From NCBI RefSeq assembly GCF_040564635.1, contig NZ_CP159837.1:2483001-2547000 (forward strand): a stretch of 64,000 nucleotides of DNA, given 5' to 3'. The DNA is from Planktothricoides raciborskii GIHE-MW2. GTDB taxonomy: Bacteria; Cyanobacteriota; Cyanobacteriia; Cyanobacteriales; Laspinemataceae. Below the pieces are notes generated by a model that ran no database searches, had not been told where the DNA came from, and saw nothing but the letters and a program-made list of their open reading frames with translations. Shown in pieces: positions 711 to 32,180 of this stretch; position 1 is the stretch's first letter; every line of letters starts with the position of its first letter. The position numbers and the translations under genes are program-made.

Positions 711-1016
711 CCAGAAACCGGGTTTCTTGAAGCGGCCCAGAAACCGGGTTTCTTGCGTCAACCCTTGCCACCCACCAACAACGCTCATAGAAACCCGGTT
801 TCTTGTCGGCCGAAGTCCAAGGACCCCTGAAACCGGGTTTCTTGCGTCAACCCTTGCCACCCACCAACAAACATCATAGAAACCCGGTTTCTTGTCCCTG
901 GGGCTAGAAACCTGGAGAGGTTAGAAACCGGGTTTCTATGTAAGGGCCGGTGGGGAGGCCGAGATTTCTTAGAGAAACCCGGTTTCTTGTCCAGGAGTCC
1001 AGAAACCGGGTTTCTT
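711..1016. repeat. Palindrome (REP/BIME-like) array 1
   Basis: About eight copies of the 15-bp palindrome AGAAACCCGGTTTCT or its reverse complement, starting just after proC. Arms are 7 bp around a central C or G, so orientation can be read from the centre base. Copies alternate in orientation and are separated by recurring linkers, for example a tract containing CAACCCTTGCCACCCACCAAC and a short TGTCCCTGGGG linker. No gene of its own is seen in it. Confidence 0.9.
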
Positions 1017-1027
1017 TCCTGCTGAAT

Positions 1028-1315
1028 TCAAATTGCCTGACAATTTTTCGGAAACAAACTAATCAAAGTGCGTAAAGCCCTATTCACCGTTTCAGCATCA
1101 GGAAAATATTCCCGCACATCTGGATCAAGCATAATTGCTCCATCTTCCAGAGTAAAATATTGAACAATATCCTTGCCATCGGTTTGATGAATGGTCACAG
1201 TATGTCCTTGCCGATAGGCTTGGTAATGCTTGCCGCGTATGCCCCCGGTAAAATCATATTCTGGAAGCATTTCATCATCAGTGATATCTGGCTGGTCAAA
1301 ATTATGATTGTTCAT
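1028..1315 (-). CDS. Antitoxin-like partner of BrnT-type toxin
   Basis: A 95-residue acidic protein. Its C-terminal part, DPDVREYFPDAETVNRALR, resembles the short C-terminal DNA-binding helices of BrnA-like antitoxins, and its middle part (HYQAYRQGHTVTIHQTDG) looks like a small beta domain. It starts within the last 14 bases of the toxin gene upstream, so the two are translationally coupled in the toxin-first order usual for brnTA. Inferred role: neutralise the toxin and autorepress the operon. No clear family match was recognised, so the function rests mainly on position. Confidence 0.6.
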   Translation of the reverse strand: MNNHNFDQPDITDDEMLPEYDFTGGIRGKHYQAYRQGHTVTIHQTDGKDIVQYFTLEDGAIMLDPDVREYFPDAETVNRALRTLISLFPKNCQAI

Positions 1316-1580
1316 AGATTTTCCTCTCTGTTTTGGTGGCTTTCCGACAACTAATAATCCGAATGTTTGCTTGACGTTCTGTGTAAACTACAACAAGTAA
1401 CTGACCTTGACTGGACCGACCAATATCAATATAGCGATCTTCATTATCCGAGTGCTGGGAATCAGCGATCGTTATCGATAATGGGTCATTGAAAACGGTT
1501 TTTGCTTCCTCAAAACTAATTCCGTGTTTTTTGAGGTTATTTTCGGCTTTTTCTTCATGCCATTCAAACCTCAACTGCAT
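1302..1580 (-). CDS. BrnT-family (DUF497) toxin
   Basis: A 92-residue protein beginning MQLRFEWHEEKAENNLKKHG, followed by SFEEAKTVFNDP, DRYIDIGRS and a C-terminal IRIISCRKATKTERKIYE. This order (FEWDxxKxxxNxxKHGxSFEEA, then RxxxIG, then IRIISAR) is the DUF497/BrnT signature; characterised BrnT proteins are ribonuclease toxins of RelE-like fold. The frame stays open upstream through palindrome repeats to 1751, but the ATG at 1580 matches family starts and the upstream peptide is only translated repeat. The antitoxin-like gene overlaps its 3' end by 14 bases. Confidence 0.85.
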   Translation of the reverse strand: MQLRFEWHEEKAENNLKKHGISFEEAKTVFNDPLSITIADSQHSDNEDRYIDIGRSSQGQLLVVVYTERQANIRIISCRKATKTERKIYEQS

Positions 1581-1649
1581 ATCATCGCCTCTTGAAAATT
1601 GAGAAACCGGGTAATTGACGAAAATCTCGGTTAGGATAGATAAATTATC

Positions 1650-2262
1650 GCCGAAACCCGGTTTCTTGTCCCCCCAGAAACCCGGTTTCTTTTTTCGGCC
1701 CAGAAACCGGGTTTCTTGCGTTAACCCTTGCCACCCACCAACAACTCTCATAGAAACCCGGTTTCTTCTTTGCCGAAGTCAAATGGCCCCAACACCTGAA
1801 GCGGTTAGAAACCCGGTTTCTTGTCCCTGGGGCGGTGGGAAGCCGGGAGAGGTTAGAAACCGGGTTTCTTGTCCCTGGGGCGGTGGGAAGCCGGGAGAGG
1901 TTAGAAACCGGGTTTCTATGTAGGGGCCTGTGGGGTGGCAAAGGTTAACTTAAGAAACCCGGTTTCTTGTCCCTGGGGCGGTGGGAAGCCGGGAGAGGTT
2001 AGAAACCGGGTTTCTATGTAAGGGCCTGTGGGGTGGCAAAGGTTAACTTAAGAAACCCGGTTTCTTGTCCCTGGGGCGGTGGGAAGCCGGGAGAGGTTAG
2101 AAACCGGGTTTCTATGTAGGGGCCTGTGGGGTGGCAAAGGTTAACTTAAGAAACCCGGTTTCTTGTCCCTGGGGCGGTGGGAAGCCGGGAGAGGTTAGAA
2201 ACCGGGTTTCTATGTAGGGGCCTGTGGGGTGGCAAAGGTTAACTTAAGAAACCCGGTTTCTT
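1650..2262. repeat. Palindrome array 2 with 48-bp and 98-bp tandem units
   Basis: About fourteen copies of the 15-bp palindrome. Between 1807 and 1903 copies recur every 48 bp. From 1953 a larger composite unit recurs at 1953, 2051, 2149 and 2247, giving a 98-bp period made of two palindromes in opposite orientation plus a GTCCCTGGGGCGGTGGGAAG linker and a TAGGGGCCTGTGGGGTGGCA linker. The near identity of units points to recent tandem amplification. The array ends about 65 bases before the kinase start. Confidence 0.92.
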
Positions 2263-2328
2263 GTCCCTTCTATGCTACTCTAGACTATGTGGCAAAGCTG
2301 ATCTAAACAAGCCCGGTTTCTCACTCCC
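2263..2328 (+). promoter_or_regulatory. Duplicated leader upstream of kinase genes
   Basis: The 66 bases before the kinase-FGE start recur almost unchanged, on the opposite strand, before the kinase-GUN4 start (about 30594-30660). Part of the leader is also fused to the deleted kinase copy near 27605. It contains a half palindrome (GCCCGGTTTCTC) just before the start codon. Conservation with the coding part suggests that promoter and ribosome-binding region travelled with the kinase domain. No consensus promoter boxes are assigned. Confidence 0.5.
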
Positions 2329-4065
2329 ATGACCCAAATCTGGCAACCCGTCATCTGGCAACCCAACCAGCAACTCGACAAAGGCAAATACACCATCACC
2401 GGCATCCTCGGAGGCGGTGGCTTCGGCAGCACCTACACCGCTAAAGACAAAAGCGGCAAAACCTTCGCCATCAAAACCCTCAACACCCAACAACAAACCA
2501 ACAAAACCATCGCCGAATTTACCAGCCTCCAGGTCAGTTTTGTCAACGAAGCATTACGGCTGGCAAGATGTCATCATCCCCACATTGTCCAAGTGTATGA
2601 AGTGGTGGAACATCAAGGACTCATGGGTATGGTCATGGAATATATCCAAGGGCAGAACTTAGCGGAATTCGTAGAAGACAATGGCCCCATGTCCCACCAG
2701 CAAGCCCTAAAAATTATGGAGCAAATTGGGGCGGCTTTGACTTTGGTACATAGCCAAGAATTATTACACCGGGACATTAAACCCCAAAATATAATGTTGC
2801 GCCGTAGTGATAGTAGCGCGGTGTTAATTGACTTTGGGTTAGCCAGACAGTTTGCCTACGGACAAACCGGCACCATGACCAACTCCAGAACCGAGTGTTA
2901 TGCTCCCATTGAGCAATATAAACGGCAAGGAAAATTCGGTCCCTATACTGATGTCTATGCTTTGGCCGCTACGCTATATAATTTGCGGACAGGTAAAAGC
3001 CCGATCCCCGCTAATTTTCGGGATGAGTTGAAACTTCCCTTGCCGGAACCGAAACAGCATAATCCGCAAATCCCTGACTGGGAAAATGCCGCCATTCTCA
3101 AAGGCTTGGAACTAGAAGCCGCAAACCGTCCCCAGTCCGTCGCTGAGTGGTTAAAATTACTAGGTCCTTTTACCACCTTTACCTTTAACATCGTCAAAGT
3201 CAACGCCCAGGGGAAAGAAATCAGCCGCAGTCAAGGGCAAGCGAAACAAATCATCACCGACCTGGGCAATGGCATCACCCTGGAAATGGTTTATATTCCT
3301 GGGGGTACATTTATGATGGGTTCCCCTGCTGGTGAAGGATATGATGATGAAAAGCCGCAGCATCAAGTCACCATCAAACCTTTCCTGATGGGCAAATATC
3401 CCGTGACCCAAGCCCAATGGCGGCAAGTGGCCAGTTTTCCCAAGCTGCAAATAGACCTCGACCCCAACCCGTCATATTTTAAAGGAGAAAATCTTCCCGT
3501 TGAATGTGTTTCATGGTATGACTGCATCGAATTTTGTGCGCGGTTAAGTCAAAAAACTGAGAAAAACTATCGCTTGCCCAGTGAAGCTGAGTGGGAATAT
3601 GCGGCACGAGCCGGAACGACCACAGCCTTTCACATCGGCGAAACCCTGACAACCGACCTGGCCAACTATGATGGCAATTATACCTATGGCTCAGGTGCTA
3701 AAGGCGTTTACCGCGAAAAAACTACTCCCGTCGGTCATTTTCAACACGCCAATGCTTTTGGCTTGTATGACATCCACGGGAATGTTTGGGAGTGGTGTTT
3801 AGACGATTGGCACGACAGCTATACTGGCGCCCCGACTAATGGTTTGGCGTGGCTAAATGAGAATGATAATGATTATCATTTTGAGCGTAATTGGATCCAT
3901 TGGTTGAAAGAAATTTTTACCCATAAAAATAATAAGCTGTTGCGTGGCGGATTCTGGTTCGACGGTCCCAGGGCTTGCCGTTCGGCGCATCGTTACTACC
4001 TCGATCCGGGCTATCGGTATCTCATTATTGGCTTCCGTATTGGGATCTCCCTGCCGAGAACTTAA
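2329..4065 (+). CDS. Ser/Thr protein kinase fused to FGE-sulfatase-like domain, probable DGR target
   Basis: A 578-residue two-domain protein. Kinase domain (about 20-275): glycine loop GGGGFGS at 28-34, AIK lysine near 49, catalytic HRDIKPQN at 147-154, DFG at 168-170, then an APE-like YAPIEQY. A linker leads to an FGE-sulfatase/C-type-lectin-fold domain (about 315-575): [46 protein letters not shown]. The paired active-site cysteines of true formylglycine enzymes are not both present, so it is more likely a ligand-binding lectin-like module. The C-terminus (537-572) has the layout of a DGR variable region. No transmembrane segment or signal peptide is seen. The ATG at 2329 is shared with the near-identical kinase-GUN4 gene. 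Confidence 0.93.
   Translation: MTQIWQPVIWQPNQQLDKGKYTITGILGGGGFGSTYTAKDKSGKTFAIKTLNTQQQTNKTIAEFTSLQVSFVNEALRLARCHHPHIVQVYEVVEHQGLMGMVMEYIQGQNLAEFVEDNGPMSHQQALKIMEQIGAALTLVHSQELLHRDIKPQNIMLRRSDSSAVLIDFGLARQFAYGQTGTMTNSRTECYAPIEQYKRQGKFGPYTDVYALAATLYNLRTGKSPIPANFRDELKLPLPEPKQHNPQIPDWENAAILKGLELEAANRPQSVAEWLKLLGPFTTFTFNIVKVNAQGKEISRSQGQAKQIITDLGNGITLEMVYIPGGTFMMGSPAGEGYDDEKPQHQVTIKPFLMGKYPVTQAQWRQVASFPKLQIDLDPNPSYFKGENLPVECVSWYDCIEFCARLSQKTEKNYRLPSEAEWEYAARAGTTTAFHIGETLTTDLANYDGNYTYGSGAKGVYREKTTPVGHFQHANAFGLYDIHGNVWEWCLDDWHDSYTGAPTNGLAWLNENDNDYHFERNWIHWLKEIFTHKNNKLLRGGFWFDGPRACRSAHRYYLDPGYRYLIIGFRIGISLPRT
3936..4044 (+). other. Putative DGR variable region (VR)
   Basis: This stretch encodes the last beta strands of the FGE domain. 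It keeps the fixed framework LLRGG-x-W, PR-x-CRSA-x-R, DP-x-x-R and IGFR, while intervening positions hold F, D, G, A, H, Y, Y, L, G, Y, Y, L and I. In unmutated cyanobacterial DGR templates these positions are mostly asparagine AAC/AAT codons. Here they are TTC, GAC, GGT, GCT, CAT, TAC, TAC, CTC, GGC, TAT, TAT, CTC and ATT, which fits adenine-directed mutagenesis. No template repeat or reverse transcriptase was found in the window. Confidence 0.7.
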
Positions 4066-4098
4066 TTTCCCTCTACTCTTTTTCTCTTTTTCCCTTTT

Positions 4099-4124
4099 GG
4101 CGCGAAGCGCCTTTTTTTTTTTTT
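4099..4124 (+). terminator. Rho-independent terminator of kinase-FGE gene
   Basis: GGCGC-GAA-GCGCC hairpin (4099-4111) followed by 13 T, 34 bases after the stop codon. A hairpin shortly after a VR is also a known DGR target feature, so it could have a second role. Two short direct repeats (GTAAAGTTTT, and TATGTTGACTAAAAAATCAA) follow before the next palindrome array. Confidence 0.85.
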
Positions 4125-4212: not shown

Positions 4213-4520
4213 AAGAAACCCGGTTTCTTAAGTCAACCTCTGCCACCCCACCGGCCCCTCCATAGAAACCCGGTTTCTAACCGCTTCAGGTGTTGAGGCC
4301 TTTCGACTTCGGCTTTCCAAGAAACCGGGTTTCTATGACATTTGTTCGTTGGTGGCTTTCGATGGTCGAAAGAAACCCGGTTTCTGCGCCCCTGGACAAG
4401 AAACCGGGTTTCTCTAAGAAACCTCTGCCACCCCACCGACCCCTCCATAGAAACCCGGTTTCTAACCCCTCCAGGTTTCCCACCGCCCCAGGTTTCTGCG
4501 CCCCTGGACAAGAAACCCGG
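4213..4520. repeat. Palindrome array 3
   Basis: Six full palindromes plus a partial AAACCCGGTTTGATG near 4511 that leads into the RAYT leader. Linkers include a TTTGTTCGTTGGTGGCTTTCGA tract and CCCCACCGACCCCTCCA. The final copy is joined to a leader (about 4522-4565) that is repeated almost exactly before the second RAYT gene, so palindrome and leader appear to be one unit. Confidence 0.9.
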
Positions 4521-4565
4521 TTTGATGCGATAATTTTTCTCGGTTTTCTTATCCTAAATCCTGAT

Positions 4566-5126
4566 ATGCCACGTCGCGAAGTTATCTTTCAAGCGGGTAA
4601 TTATTACCATGTTTATAACCGAGGTAATAACCGTCAGCTAATCTTCTTTGAACAAGATAACTATACTTATTTTTTACGCCAATTAAGAACCCATTTGATG
4701 CATCGCGGCGTGGATATTATTGCGTATTGTTTGATGCCCAATCACTATCATTTATTAGTCTATCTGAACACTGAAAATTTTTCTAAGCTGATGCAGGCAT
4801 TTACTTTGTCTTATGCTAAGGCGATTAATCAACGGTATAAAAGGGTAGGGTCACTATTTCAAGGACGGTTTCAGGCGATTCATGTAGATAAAGACGAATA
4901 TTTATTAAATCTAACTCGTTATATTCACTTAAATCCCGTCGAGGCTAATTTAGTGGAGAAAGCAGAGGATTGGGAGTTTTCCAGTTATCAAGAATATGTT
5001 GATTTGCGTCGGGGTAGTTTGCCGAAATTGGATGGATTGGAGTTGGTTTCAGCGGATGCTTATCGGGATTTTTTAGAAGATGTAAATATGGAGAATATAA
5101 GCGAGGATTTAACTTTTGAAGAATAG
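4566..5126 (+). CDS. REP-associated tyrosine transposase (RAYT), copy 1
   Basis: A 186-residue Y1/HUH transposase of the TnpA-REP type. Visible are YHVYNRGNNR, the HUH motif inside LMPNHYHLLVYL, a tract resembling the family's RYxRxGxxFQGRF (RYKRVGSLFQGRF), and YLLNLTRYIHLNPVEANLV, which carries the catalytic tyrosine region. Such enzymes cut and rejoin single-stranded REP palindromes. The frame is open upstream through repeats, but ATG 4566 gives the same N-terminus (MPRREVIFQAGNYYHVYN) as copy 2. It is flanked on both sides by the palindromes it probably acts on, and it is intact, so it may be active. Confidence 0.93.
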   Translation: MPRREVIFQAGNYYHVYNRGNNRQLIFFEQDNYTYFLRQLRTHLMHRGVDIIAYCLMPNHYHLLVYLNTENFSKLMQAFTLSYAKAINQRYKRVGSLFQGRFQAIHVDKDEYLLNLTRYIHLNPVEANLVEKAEDWEFSSYQEYVDLRRGSLPKLDGLELVSADAYRDFLEDVNMENISEDLTFEE

Positions 5127-5129
5127 CCC

Positions 5130-5560
5130 CAGAAACCGGGTTTCTTGCGTCAACCTTTGCCACCAAGGAAAAAACATCATAGAAACCCGGTTTCTTCTTT
5201 GCCGAAGTCAGTTAACCCCAAAACCTGAAGCGGCCCAGAAACCGGGTTTCTTGCGTCAACCTTTGCCACCAACCCCAGAAACCGGGTTTCTTAAGTTAAC
5301 CTTTGCCACCAACGAACAAATATCATAGAAACCCGGTTTCTTGCCCCGGTTTCTGGTTTGCCGAAGTCAAGGGGTCCCAACACCTGAAGCGGTTAGAAAC
5401 CGGGTTTCTATGTAAGGGCCGGTGGGGTGACAAGGGTTGTCTAAAGAAACCCGGTTTCTTGTCCCTGGGGCGGTGAGAAACCGGGAGAGGTTAGAAACCG
5501 GGTTTCTATCTAAGGGCCGGTGGGGTGACAAGGGTTGTCTAAAGAAACCCGGTTTCTTGT
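5130..5560. repeat. Palindrome array 4
   Basis: About nine palindromes in both orientations between RAYT copy 1 and the FHA-kinase gene. The recurring 'GCCGAAGTC...CAACACCTGAAGCGG' linker appears here twice. The array begins 4 bases after the RAYT stop codon and ends about 30 bases after the convergent FHA-kinase stop. Confidence 0.9.
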
Positions 5561-6979: not shown

Positions 6980-7475
6980 GTTAGAAACCGGGTTTCTTAA
7001 GTTAACCTTTGCCACCAACCCCAGAAACCGGGTTTCTTTAGATAACCTTTGCCACCAACAAACAAATGTCATAGAAACCCGGTTTCTTGCCCCGGTTTCT
7101 TGCGCTGGTTTCTTCTTTGCCGAAGTCGAAGGGTCCCAACACCTGAAGCGGTTAGAAACCGGGTTTCTATGTAGGGGCTGGTGGGGAGGCAAAGGTTGTC
7201 TAAAGAAACCCGGTTTCTTGTCCCTGGGGCGGCCCAGAAACCGGGTAATTAACGTTAACCTTTGCCACAAACGAAAAAACATCATAGAAACCCGGTTTCT
7301 TGTCCCTGGGGCTAGAAACCTGGAGAGGTTAGAAACCGGGTTTCTATGTAGGGGCCTGTGGGGAGGCCGAGATTTCTTAGAGAAACCCGGTTTCTTGTCC
7401 CTGGGGTTAGAAACCGGGTTTCTCTGTAGGGGCTGGTGGGGTGGCAAAGGTTGTCTAAAGAAACCCGGTTTCTTG
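6980..7475. repeat. Palindrome array 5
   Basis: About ten palindromes plus a decayed AGAAACCGGGTAATTAACG copy near 7235. After 7475 the linker TGTCCCTGGGGTTTCT is repeated three times without a full palindrome, apparently slippage products. The array separates the starts of the FHA-kinase from the 3' end of ccmO. Confidence 0.9.
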
Positions 7476-27616: not shown

Positions 27617-27726
27617 AGAAACCGGGTTTCTTAAGTCAACCCTTGCCTCCCCACCGGCCCTTACATAGAAACCCGGTTTCTAACCTCTCCCGGCTTCCCA
27701 CCGCCCCAGGGACAAGAAACCCGGTT
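27617..27726. repeat. Palindrome array 6
   Basis: Two full palindromes and a partial AAACCCGGTTTGATG copy which, as in array 3, is fused to the RAYT leader. The linker CCCCACCGGCCCTTACATAG is shared with other arrays. Confidence 0.9.
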
Positions 27727-27769
27727 TGATGCGATAATTTTTCTCGGTATTCTTATCCTAAATCCTGAT

Positions 27770-28330
27770 ATGCCACGTCGCGAAGTTATCTTTCAAGCGG
27801 GTAATTATTACCATGTTTATAACCGAGGTAATAACCGTCAGCTAATATTCTTTGAACGAGATAACTATATTTATTTTTTACGTCAGTTAAGAACCCATCT
27901 GATTGAGCGCGGCGTGGATATTATTGCGTATTGTTTGATGCCCAATCACTATCATTTATTAGTGTATCTGAAAAATGAGTATTTTTCTAAGCTGATGCAG
28001 GCATTTACATTGTCTTATGCTAAGGCGATTAATCAACGGTATAAAAGGGTTGGGTCACTGTTTCAGGGACGGTTTCAGGCAATTCATGTAGATCGAGAAG
28101 AATATTTATTGAATCTGACTCGCTATATTCACTTAAATCCCGTTGAGGCGAATTTAGTGGAAAAAGCAGAGGATTGGGAGTTTTCCAGTTATCAAGAATA
28201 TGTTGATTTGCGTCGGGGTAGTTTGCCGAAATTGGATAGAGTGGAGTTATTTTCAGCGGATGCTTATCGGTATTTTTTAGAAGATGTAAATATAGAGAAT
28301 ATAAGTGAGCATTTAACTTTTGAAGAGTAG
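27770..28330 (+). CDS. REP-associated tyrosine transposase (RAYT), copy 2
   Basis: A 186-residue protein about 92% identical by eye to copy 1 (4566-5126), with all motifs kept: LMPNHYHLLVYL (HUH), RYKRVGSLFQGRF and YLLNLTRYIHLNPVEANLV. Differences cluster at the C-terminus (LDRVELFSADAYRYFLED). The leader before ATG 27770 is nearly identical to copy 1 over more than 40 bases. Palindromes lie on both sides. Both copies are intact, so recent duplication or transposition is likely. Confidence 0.93.
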   Translation: MPRREVIFQAGNYYHVYNRGNNRQLIFFERDNYIYFLRQLRTHLIERGVDIIAYCLMPNHYHLLVYLKNEYFSKLMQAFTLSYAKAINQRYKRVGSLFQGRFQAIHVDREEYLLNLTRYIHLNPVEANLVEKAEDWEFSSYQEYVDLRRGSLPKLDRVELFSADAYRYFLEDVNIENISEHLTFEE

Positions 28331-28332
28331 CC

Positions 28333-28952
28333 CCAGAAACCGGGTGCGGCCCAGAAACCGGGTTTCTTCTTGCGGCCCAGAAACCGGGTGCGGCCCAGAA
28401 ACCGGGTTTCTTTAGACCATCTTTGCCACCAACGAAAAAACATCATAGAAACCCGGTTTCTTCTTTGCCGAAGTCGAAGCAGCCCAAAAACCCCAGAAAC
28501 CGGGTTTCTATGGAGGGGCCGGTGGGGAGGCAGACATTTCTCAAAGAAACCCGGTTTCTTCTTGCGGCCCAGAAACCGGGTTTCTTCTTGCGGCCCAGAA
28601 ACCGGGTTTCTTTAGACCATCGAAAGCCACCAACGCACAAATGTCATAGAAACCCGGTTTCTTGTTGGCCGAAGTCAATTGGCCCCAACACCTGAAGCGG
28701 TTAGAAACCGGGTTTCTATGTAGGGGCCGGTGGGGTGGCAAAGGTTAACGCAAGAAACCCGGTTTCTTGTCCAGGGGCGCAGAAACCGGGTTTCTTTAGA
28801 CCATCGAAAGCCACCAACGAACAAATGTCATAGAAACCCGGTTTCTTTTTTGCCGAAGTCGAAGGGTCCCAACACCTGAAGCGGTTAGAAACCGGGTTTC
28901 TATGGAGGGGTCGGTGGGGTGGCAAAGGTTGACTTAAGAAACCCGGTTTCTT
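28333..28952. repeat. Palindrome array 7
   Basis: About fourteen palindromes in both orientations, plus short degenerate ones (AGAAACCGGGTGCGGCCC repeated at 28336 and 28378). The linkers GCGGCCCAGAAACCGGG, ACCATCGAAAGCCACCAACG and the AACACCTGAAGCGG linker recur. The repeated GCGGCCC unit suggests local slippage. Confidence 0.9.
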
Positions 28953-29144: not shown

Positions 29145-30593
29145 TTAAAGTCCACAAGTCTCGACGCGACATAAGATAGGGAACCCTTGACCTGTAGGCA
29201 AAGTCCAACCGACCTCAGTAAGAAAAGGAAGGTGAGGAAGGTGACCGGAAGGGGCTTTCATATCAAAAGTAATATCACTGTAATTCAACCACTCTTCTCT
29301 TTTTCTCCGCTCTTCTCCTTTTCTCCACCCTACTCTGTTTATAAATTCTTGCCATTTCGGATAGACGAATTTCTCATCGGTTATATTACCTGTTTGAAGC
29401 AAACTTCGATAAATGCGACTCTGCACCGAAAAGCCAAAGCGCCCATTGCTGTATTTAACCCACAATTGGTCAATGGTTCGCAGGTCAGTACAAGGAAAAT
29501 TGCCCAGATGAGAATTTGCCCCCCAGCCTCTGCGTCCCCCTATTTGGTCGGGACTGAACTCCAATATTTCGTAAACGGTGAGCCGGTCAATGCCAGGAAG
29601 ATTATCCCTGAAATTCAGCCAGAAATCTTCTTCTTCTACGCCCATCACTTTCAACATCACTCGCGCTGTTTCCACGTCTGCGGCTTTCCACTCTTGCGCT
29701 TTTAAATAGTCTCGCAAGCGATGATAGTCCAATCCTTTATCTGAGCTCAAATCGTCTTCCAATAACTTCAACCACTCAGCCACGGACTGAGGACGTTTTG
29801 CTGCTTCTAACTCCAAGCCTTTGAGGATGGCGGCATTTTCCCCGGCTGGGATTTGCGAATTATGCTGTTTCGGTTCCGGCAGGGGGATTTTCAACTCATC
29901 TTGATAATTAGCCGGTATCGGATTTTTTCCCGTCCGTAAATAATATAGAGTAGCGGCCAAAGCATAGACATCAGTATAGGGACCGAATTTTCCTTGCCGT
30001 TTATATTGCTCAATGGGAGCATAACACTCGGTTCTGGAGTTGGTCATGGTGCCGGTTTGTCCGTAGGCAAACTGTCTGGCTAACCCAAAGTCAATTAACA
30101 CCGCGCTACTATCACTACGGCGCAACATTATATTTTGGGGTTTAATGTCCCGGTGTAATAATTCTTGGCTATGTACCAAAGTTAAAGCCGCCCCAATTTG
30201 CTCCATAATTTTCAGGGCTTGCTGTTGGGACATGGGGCCATTGTCTTCTAGCAGTTCCGCTAAGTTCTGCCCTTGGATATATTCCATGACCATGCCCATG
30301 AGTCCTTGATGTTCGACCACTTCATACACTTGGACAATGTGGGGATGATGACATCTTGCCAGCCGTAATGCTTCGTTGACAAAATTGACCTGGAGGCTGG
30401 TAAATTCGGGGATGGTTTTGTTGGTTTGTTGTTGGGTGTTGAGGGTTTTGATGGCGAAGGTTTTGCCGCTTTTGTCTTTAGCGGTGTAGGTGCTGCCGAA
30501 GCCACCGCCACCGAGGATGCCGGTGATGGTGTATTTGCCTTTGTCTAGTTGCTGGTTGGGTTGCCAGATGACGGGTTGCCAGATTTGGGTCAT
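29145..30593 (-). CDS. Ser/Thr protein kinase fused to GUN4 domain
   Basis: A 482-residue protein. The kinase domain (1-280) is about 95% identical to that of the kinase-FGE gene, with HRDIKPQN and DFG intact. After WLKLL it switches to a GUN4 domain (about 285-430): LSSDKGLDYHRLRDYLKAQ, WKAADVETARVMLKVMG, LGNFPCTDLRTIDQLWVKYS, NGRFGFSVQSRIYRSL. GUN4 binds porphyrins and stimulates Mg-chelatase, so this kinase may sense tetrapyrroles. C-terminal residues after GUN4 are unassigned. The start and upstream leader match the other kinase. Confidence 0.92.
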   Translation of the reverse strand: MTQIWQPVIWQPNQQLDKGKYTITGILGGGGFGSTYTAKDKSGKTFAIKTLNTQQQTNKTIPEFTSLQVNFVNEALRLARCHHPHIVQVYEVVEHQGLMGMVMEYIQGQNLAELLEDNGPMSQQQALKIMEQIGAALTLVHSQELLHRDIKPQNIMLRRSDSSAVLIDFGLARQFAYGQTGTMTNSRTECYAPIEQYKRQGKFGPYTDVYALAATLYYLRTGKNPIPANYQDELKIPLPEPKQHNSQIPAGENAAILKGLELEAAKRPQSVAEWLKLLEDDLSSDKGLDYHRLRDYLKAQEWKAADVETARVMLKVMGVEEEDFWLNFRDNLPGIDRLTVYEILEFSPDQIGGRRGWGANSHLGNFPCTDLRTIDQLWVKYSNGRFGFSVQSRIYRSLLQTGNITDEKFVYPKWQEFINRVGWRKGEERRKREEWLNYSDITFDMKAPSGHLPHLPFLTEVGWTLPTGQGFPILCRVETCGL

Positions 30594-30657: not shown

Positions 30658-30976
30658 ACAAGAAACCGGGTTTCTTAAGTTAACCTTTGCCACCCCACAG
30701 GCCCTTACATAGAAACCCGGTTTCTAACCTCTCCCGGCTTCCCACCGCCCCAGGGACAAGAAACCCGGTTTCTAACCTCTCCCGGCTTCCCACCGCCCCA
30801 GGGACAAGAAACCCGGTTTCTAACCTCTCCCGGCTTCCCACCGCCCCAGGGACAAGAAACCCGGTTTCTAACCTCTCCCGGCTTCTAGCCCCAGGGACAA
30901 GAAACCGGGTTTCTTAAGTTAACCCTTGCCACTCCACCGGCCCTTACATAGAAACCCGGTTTCTAACCCCCCTTGC
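30658..30976. repeat. Palindrome array 8 with 48-bp tandem units
   Basis: About seven palindromes. Between 30713 and 30860 a unit of 48 bp recurs, containing one palindrome and the linker CTAACCTCTCCCGGCTTCCC, the reverse complement of the 48-bp unit in array 2. It shows that the tandem unit was carried with the kinase duplication or spread between arrays. Confidence 0.9.
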
Positions 30977-31211: not shown

Positions 31212-32180
31212 TCAGGTTCCTTGCAATTCCCTAATATCCAGCAAAACTTTAAGCACTCCCCGTGTTTGGGCGTGTTTAAAGGCAGCGATCGCTTCTTTTA
31301 AGGGATAACGGGCTTGAATCAACGGCTGAACATTAATTTTATTTTTAGATAAGATTTCTAGGGCTTGGGGAAAAGGGCCACAACGAGAACCAATTAGGGT
31401 AATTTCATCCACCACTAACCCCGAAGCATCAAAGGTGAGATTGCCCTTATAGGTACTTTTCAGCACCAACGTGCCCCTGGGACGTAAAGCGCGACGGGCG
31501 ATCGCGAATCCTTCCGGGTTGCCAGTACATTCCACCGCAATATCAAAACTTCTATCTTTGACCAAATCCGCAAATCCGGTTTGAATTCCTTCCGCTTCCA
31601 GGTTGGCCAATTTCTCACCATGACGCCCGATCGCCAATAAGTCGCAAGCAGTCAACGCCAAGGTTTGCGCCACCAACTGACCCAACTTGCCATCCCCGAC
31701 CACCAACACGCGATCGCCGGGTTTAATCTCCACTTGCTGCTGAATTTCCAACGCGGCAGCCACAGGTTCCGTAAAAGTCGCCACATCTGTGGAAATGTTA
31801 TCCGGTACTCGGTGCAAATTTTTGACTGGCAAAGCCAGATAATCCGCAAAAGCGCCATTCCGATTCACAATCCCCAACACCGTGCGATTTTCACAGTGAG
31901 TCGGTTGTCCCTTTTGACAAAAGCGACACCAACCGCAAGCGGCATTAATTTCGCCCACCACCCGCTGATTAATCAAATTTTCCGGCCCTTGTTCCACCAC
32001 CCCAACAAATTCGTGGCCCAAAATGCCATTGTAAGGATAATAGCCTCTGACCAATTCCAAATCCGTATTGCAAATACCTGCCCGCAAAACCCGCACTAAA
32101 GCTTCTCCCGGTGCAGGTTCAGGAATTGGCAGATTTTGCCGCAGTTCTAATGTTTGATTTTCTAACCAGAGTCCTTGCAT
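31212..32180 (-). CDS. Zinc-dependent MDR alcohol dehydrogenase
   Basis: A 322-residue medium-chain dehydrogenase. Catalytic zinc ligands: Cys in GICNTDLELVRG, His-Glu in GHEFVG. Structural zinc: four Cys in CGWCRFCQKGQPTHC. The cofactor motif VVGDGKLGQLVA (GxGxxG variant) marks NAD(P) binding. Polyol or sugar dehydrogenase-like substrate is probable but not determinable. The 3' end abuts the relic at 30985-31168, with the last codons in the duplicated tract, so the C-terminus (LLDIRELQGT) could be slightly altered. Confidence 0.88.
   Translation of the reverse strand: MQGLWLENQTLELRQNLPIPEPAPGEALVRVLRAGICNTDLELVRGYYPYNGILGHEFVGVVEQGPENLINQRVVGEINAACGWCRFCQKGQPTHCENRTVLGIVNRNGAFADYLALPVKNLHRVPDNISTDVATFTEPVAAALEIQQQVEIKPGDRVLVVGDGKLGQLVAQTLALTACDLLAIGRHGEKLANLEAEGIQTGFADLVKDRSFDIAVECTGNPEGFAIARRALRPRGTLVLKSTYKGNLTFDASGLVVDEITLIGSRCGPFPQALEILSKNKINVQPLIQARYPLKEAIAAFKHAQTRGVLKVLLDIRELQGT

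Follow-up and report, generated by a model that had tools for sequence, protein, structure and literature searches.

DGRs are retroelements that copy the RNA of a template repeat (TR) with adenine-specific errors and then replace a variable region (VR) in a target gene. In cyanobacteria, remote variable proteins (VPs) of DGRs were described by Vallota-Eastman et al. (2020, PMC7517822) in 52 genomes chosen for a complete DGR. In that description they end in a C-terminal CLec/FGE module whose VR lies close to the 3' terminus of the coding sequence, are often fused to Ser/Thr kinases, lie far from the reverse transcriptase (RT) and differ from the TR at adenines. A VP paralogue reported there, all3226 of Nostoc PCC 7120, retains remnant TR-VR homology with no RT nearby, and the authors suggest that the machine was removed after a good variant had been selected; so far it has been a matter of suggestion, made in that article, whether DGRs of cyanobacteria stay active or are dropped once they have served, leaving a favourable variant fixed. 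Adenine mutation has been reported in Nostoc punctiforme, a laboratory cyanobacterium (PMC12691664), while the BPP-1 phage DGR (Guo et al. 2011, PMC3240598) provides the reference for TR/VR layout, adenine-specific change and a hairpin downstream of the VR.

The gene described here lies in a 64,000-nucleotide stretch of the Planktothricoides raciborskii GIHE-MW2 genome, analysed as a whole and referred to as the window (contig NZ_CP159837.1, positions 2,483,001 to 2,547,000). It has all of the above features of the remote cyanobacterial VPs and the three named for BPP-1, and its type, a remote cyanobacterial DGR target, is already known; less described is the state that follows loss of the mutator. 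Unlike the genomes with a complete DGR in PMC7517822, the source genome has four VR genes and no avd, RT or TR that we could find, and whereas PCC 7120 keeps two DGRs, none was found here and the near-identical strain Planktothricoides sp. SR001 shows the expected site. The main text of PMC7517822 makes no mention of Planktothricoides, the words retroelement, reverse transcriptase and kinase are absent from the main text of the SR001 genome paper (PMC5460452), and among the papers listed by a literature search for DGRs in Planktothricoides or for lost, inactive or remote DGR targets there was no report of this pair of genomes.

Architecture of the window gene

The window gene (2329–4065, forward strand, as are all features of this locus given below) encodes a protein of 578 residues. 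Residues 21–231 (2389–3021) match a Hanks-type Ser/Thr protein kinase domain (PF00069, E 1.3e-43), and residues 319–571 (3283–4041), which hold the VR, match an FGE-sulfatase/C-type-lectin-like domain (PF03781, E 1.7e-52). The translated kinase domain contains both HRDIKPQN and DFG, which we take to be the catalytic motifs of a Hanks-type kinase; the gene encodes such a kinase by these matches, and kinase activity is predicted. A catalytic formylglycine-generating enzyme requires a redox-active cysteine pair. An AlphaFold2 model of the FGE domain built from 7 sequences was too poor for use (mean pLDDT 49, residues 119–256 below 50), and the FGE fold of the protein is assigned by profile match. 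Treponema denticola variable protein 1 (2y3c) is among the PDB relatives (E 1.5e-20, covering part of the FGE domain), and, judged from this relationship and from PF03781, the VR sits as in other DGR targets, towards the 3' end of its gene and inside a domain of C-type-lectin-like type.

The variable region and its template

A scan of a collection of genome contigs for the VR backbone pattern returned six stretches, three of them in SR001. One of these three is a TR, hereafter TR2 (contig C88, from position 32014), lying about 140 bp downstream of a DGR-type RT gene. Aligned with TR2, which sets its limits, the VR of the window gene covers 110 bp (3937–4046) and is changed at 14 of the 27 TR2 adenines and at none of the 83 other bases (Fisher p = 1.1e-10 for the adenine bias). 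This distribution rules out chance as the cause of the pattern, and on its strength we regard the end of the window gene as a genuine DGR variable region.

Eleven codons are altered relative to TR2 (3952, 3958, 3961, 3964, 3973, 3994, 4000, 4012, 4018, 4021 and 4024). The adenine-bearing codons of TR2, which leave up to 18 codons of the FGE/C-type-lectin-like domain open to change, comprise eight AAC or AAT together with TAC, CAC, CAT, GAT, ATT, ATC, AGG and GGA. Across five TR2-type VRs (that of the window, that at 997 kb described below and three of SR001), the 135 cells that stand at template adenines hold A in 64 cases, T in 38, G in 28 and C in 5.

A first-pass annotation of this DNA had proposed that the gene ends in a DGR-type VR, that its FGE domain is joined to a Ser/Thr kinase, and that constant motifs alternate with NNY codons at the C-terminus; all three proposals are borne out. 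The details needed adjustment. Its limits for the VR, 3936–4044, were slightly off those set by TR2. Among its 13 variable positions were the GGC codon at 4009 (Gly), which is invariant in TR2 and in all four VRs of the genome, and the CAT at 3988 and one TAC at 3997, which contain TR2 adenines and are the same codons as in TR2; the altered TTC at 3958 had been missed. The AAC/AAT template codons that it assumed are the eight named above, beside which TR2 has the other adenine-bearing codons.

Sequences downstream of the variable region

Positions 4047–4065 hold an IMH-like 3' end, CTCCCTGCCGAGAACTTAA, which is identical in the four VRs of the genome and reads CTCCCTGCCGAGCACTTTT in TR2; in the comparison of IMH and IMH*, the VR ends in GCCGAGAACTTAA and TR2 in GCCGAGCACTTTT. 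To this element we assign a putative homing function. It is followed by a pyrimidine-rich stretch (4066–4098), comparable ones being seen after other VRs, and then by a hairpin with its T tract (4099–4124; DNA fold z -3.4), noted in the first-pass annotation, whose stem-loop GGCGC-GAA-GCGCC occupies 4099–4111 and runs into 13 T.

The hairpin is terminator-like and possibly a homing hairpin. Phage-type hairpins have a stem of 7–10 bp and a 4-nt GRNA loop (PMC3240598), a rule that the window hairpin fails but that is phage-derived and may not apply to cyanobacterial DGRs. Because a stem of only 5 bp and a loop of 3 nt lead directly into T13, it may be only a terminator. At this locus it is identical in the source genome, in SR001 and in a second Planktothricoides species (G001). 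At the 2148 kb locus described below, the GGCGCGAAGCGCC hairpin is missing in both the source genome and SR001, yet the VR there differs between the two.

Related variable regions in the genome, in SR001 and in G001

A search of the source genome with a 139-base query over the gene end gave three more full or near-full-length matches (C1:997 kb, 2148 kb and 6469 kb), all at the 3' ends of kinase-FGE frames, bringing the kinase-FGE VRs found in the genome to four. Among 59 genomes queried with the VR, two had a match, namely the source genome and G001. Variable sites across the four VRs are mostly the first and second bases of NNY codons, with the 6469 kb copy also varying at third positions. 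Three of the four (window, 997 kb and 2148 kb) have a TR2-type backbone. Relative to TR2, the 997 kb VR is changed at 14/27 adenines and 0/83 other bases and the 2148 kb VR at 15/27 and 5/83, while the 6469 kb VR is a poor fit (20/27 and 17/83) and instead agrees well with TR1, the template of G001 (19/29 and 1/81). The four VRs of SR001 are changed at 14, 17, 12 and 12 of the 27 TR2 adenines and at 0, 0, 4 and 0 of the 83 other bases; those of G001, set against TR1, at 18, 13, 16 and 15 of 29 adenines and 0, 0, 0 and 3 of 81 others.

Comparison of VRs between strains, which the first-pass annotation had put forward as a check, proved informative, three loci differing between the source genome and SR001 almost only at template adenines. 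The window VR and its SR001 orthologue differ at 19 positions, every one a TR2 adenine, within flanks showing 9/873 mismatches and a 54-base gap over 900 bp upstream and 0/65 mismatches downstream. At 997 kb all 23 VR differences are on TR2 adenines (flanks 4/900 upstream, 0/65 downstream), and at 2148 kb 21 of 24 are (0/900 and 0/65). The 6469 kb locus shows 35 VR differences, 18 on TR2 adenines, and flanks with 79/879 and 5/65 mismatches. Thus at three loci the VR varies between close strains and its flanks do not, as expected of DGR targets, whereas the fourth is diverged throughout; around the compared loci SR001 DNA is up to 100% identical to that of the source genome.

The G001 orthologue of the window gene likewise has close flanks (28/888 mismatches upstream, 0/65 downstream), and its VR matches G001's own TR1 (18/29 adenines, 0/81 other bases). 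On these alignments, the VR backbone as a whole has been exchanged. A non-target within the same genomes is available for comparison in VP2, a neighbouring kinase-FGE gene lacking the SLPRT ending: its VR-equivalent residues are identical in the source genome, SR001 and G001, and over its final 150 bases the gene differs from that of SR001 at 8 positions.

The 2148 kb VR and its SR001 orthologue (C159) both differ from TR2 at sites 63, 71, 83 and 84, none of them an adenine. As these sites account for all but one of the five such mismatches in the 2148 kb VR, both VRs were probably written by a TR2 variant, now lost, with adenines at two more sites.

DGR machinery in related genomes and in the source genome

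Contig C65 of G001 carries, in order, VP1, avd, RT, TR1 and VP2, and contig C88 of SR001 carries avd, RT and TR2, towards which VP4 is convergent. The SR001 Avd matches NF033474 (E 2e-36), both Avds match PF22296, and both RTs contain GLPIGNLTSQ and YVDD, GNLTSQ being found in Fischerella RTs as well.

The genome searched is a single contig of 7,215,835 bases (7.2 Mb) with a completeness of 99.16%. A PF00078 profile search gave 19 RT stretches, 15 of which have a PQGG/QGAP-type motif (group II maturases and one retron-like TPR-RT). The DGR motif GNLTSQ occurs in none of the 19, four being short pieces (59–66 aa) that do not extend to the motif region. Neither the retron-like TPR-RT nor the maturases of group II introns have this motif, and both are rejected as the diversifier. 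With a Fischerella DGR RT as query, the best hit in the genome was a maturase (E 5e-12, 29%), while near-full-length matches of 67–73% were obtained in 4 of 12 genomes searched, its own included. No Avd was found in the genome (best E 0.45), the SR001 Avd used as query recovering itself at 100% and the G001 protein at 93%. Four queries for a TR (the VR, its all-adenine version, a degenerate pattern allowing up to 3 mismatches, and TR1) returned none, the only full-length matches being the four VRs. We consider the TR and Avd searches to be working, because the same searches found both in SR001 and G001.

The first-pass annotation had attributed diversification to an RT elsewhere in the genome and had made its reading depend on a template repeat beside such an RT. 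Neither was found in the one-contig assembly, and the attribution is not supported; the DGR origin of the VR is nevertheless shown by the SR001 cassette.

Several RT-related sequences were observed alongside these searches. The TPR-fused retron-like RT, at C1:4027629 (979–3216 of excerpt L019), is a 746-aa open frame in which neither the DGR motif nor that of group II elements occurs. Of the group II maturases, three copies (C1:244322–244935, 5332192–5332805 and 5318652–5319265) are each split into two open frames (179 + 400 aa), and the split point looks the same in all three. Two genomes of the same family contain DGR RT matches that look decayed, near-full-length with an in-frame TAG in one (G005, C38:13877–14929) and as two short pieces in the other (G006, C1:7375726 and 4910023); members of this family may have lost DGRs repeatedly. 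In Nostoc sp. CHAB 5844, a TR-like stretch rich in AAC/AAT (4232–4269, reverse strand, of excerpt L078), outside long frames in the part translated, shares part of its backbone with TR2 and lies some 1.5 kb from a gene of FGE type.

The cassette site

SR001 contig C88 and the source genome are collinear as far as the 3' limit of a gene that resembles a regulator and, on visual inspection, an FHA protein, and collinearity resumes about 65 bp past the VP4 stop, the VP4 hairpin included. Between the collinear blocks SR001 has 2066 bp, comprising avd, RT and TR2, and the source genome 533 bp, largely dispersed repeats. The 533 bp begin with a piece of the SR001 spacer between RT and TR that measures 41 nt, with 38 nt falling within the 533 bp and 39/41 identical, occurring once each in the source genome and in SR001 at up to 3 mismatches and absent from G001. 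Identity is about 100% in the outer flanks and falls to 83–93% over the 3' part of VP4.

The 533-bp site looks like a deletion scar, in which avd and RT would have been deleted and TR2 then lost or replaced. Because the 3' part of VP4 is only 83–93% identical, replacement by a related allele was likely involved, and since the tract around the scar is diverged, allelic exchange is possible in either direction. A history of insertion would need avd-RT and TR to have arrived on either side of the 41-nt piece.

Origin and present state of the variable region

We favour the reading, at a probability of roughly 0.8, that the window VR is a trans target of a cyanobacterial DGR, since orphaned and probably frozen. 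An Avd-associated RT would have copied TR2 RNA, inserting bases at random wherever the template has an adenine, and the resulting cDNA would have replaced the VR in trans at the 3' end of the window gene. The cassette (avd, RT and TR) would later have been lost near C1:6.469 Mb, having been deleted, replaced by a related allele, or both, and with its loss from this site the VR would be frozen, changing now by ordinary mutation alone; rewriting since the strain split could have occurred in SR001 alone. We infer that the cassette was lost from the source genome rather than gained by SR001, and that the VR is inactive at present; as to direction, no counterpart of the site appeared among the 40 candidates scored of 741 in G001, a 95% complete draft. 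Also against this reading are the five non-adenine mismatches of the 2148 kb VR, which need a lost TR2 variant, and the 6469 kb VR, which fits TR1 and whose differences from the SR001 orthologue extend far outside the adenines.

A plasmid-borne DGR could be missing because the assembly is one contig, and the DGR may still be active on a plasmid or other replicon outside it. Fischerella NIES-4106 and Anabaena 90 do have plasmid-borne DGR-type loci (also reported in PMC7517822), and two VRs of the genome keep the TR2 backbone with zero non-adenine mismatches. We nonetheless think this improbable, given that the completeness is high and the size near the 7.1 Mb of SR001, and that the flanks of the SR001 cassette contig match the chromosome of the source genome, where the cassette is missing. 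The backbone scan of viral contigs gave 0 hits and a plasmid search with the VR gave no match, in a set from which records very near the source genome may be left out.

It is similarly unlikely, in our view, that SR001 gained the cassette, that the site in the source genome never held one, and that the TR2-type VRs were imported by recombination from DGR-bearing strains. The tract at the site is diverged and recombinant-looking, and the G001 cassette stands at a different locus, so cassettes move; but three separate imports of short VRs would be needed into flanks 99–100% identical to SR001, and the cassette-less site contains part of the SR001 RT-TR spacer. Hardly credible is an origin without any retroelement, through positive selection on a binding surface and gene conversion among paralogues. 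Such a process would account for a VR backbone and 3' ends common to the paralogues, but the changes follow the adenines of a TR beside Avd and a DGR RT in both SR001 and G001, and the window VR is unchanged at its 83 non-adenine sites. Simple selection is refuted by the TR2 match.

The useful part is a near-isogenic pair, apparently without and with the mutator, in which the DNA around three remote targets is 99–100% identical. With such a pair, resequencing and complementation can address the question of whether DGRs are kept or discarded. A further lesson is that mutator-free genomes can contain hypervariable proteins, which RT-anchored DGR searches would miss. In line with the proposal in PMC7517822, the FGE/C-type-lectin-like domain would be a sensor through which the kinase perceives a ligand or substrate.

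DGR cassette loci differ between the two Planktothricoides species, G001 and SR001. We postulate, tentatively and at a little under even odds, that the Planktothricoides DGR is a transient, movable module whose templates turn over (TR1, TR2 and the inferred variant) and re-backbone kinase VRs in trans, after which strains can lose the mutator and fix their sensor-kinase repertoire. Were this so, nature would have provided a knock-out, the source genome, together with an active strain that is nearly isogenic to it.

Other features of the window

GAAACC(C/G)GGTTTC palindromes occur 73 times in the window, mostly in clusters (714–1014, 1653–2260, 4215–4462, 5132–5556, 6984–7472, 27618–28950 and 30662–30963). 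Beside them lie two Y1_Tnp (IS200-like) genes, at 4290–5126 and 27770–28330, which are presumably RAYT genes. A second kinase gene (29145–30593, reverse strand) has an N-terminal translation nearly the same as that of the window gene, and its C-terminus is GUN4 (PF05419) instead of FGE; the two ends on near-identical kinases look like a C-terminal domain swap.
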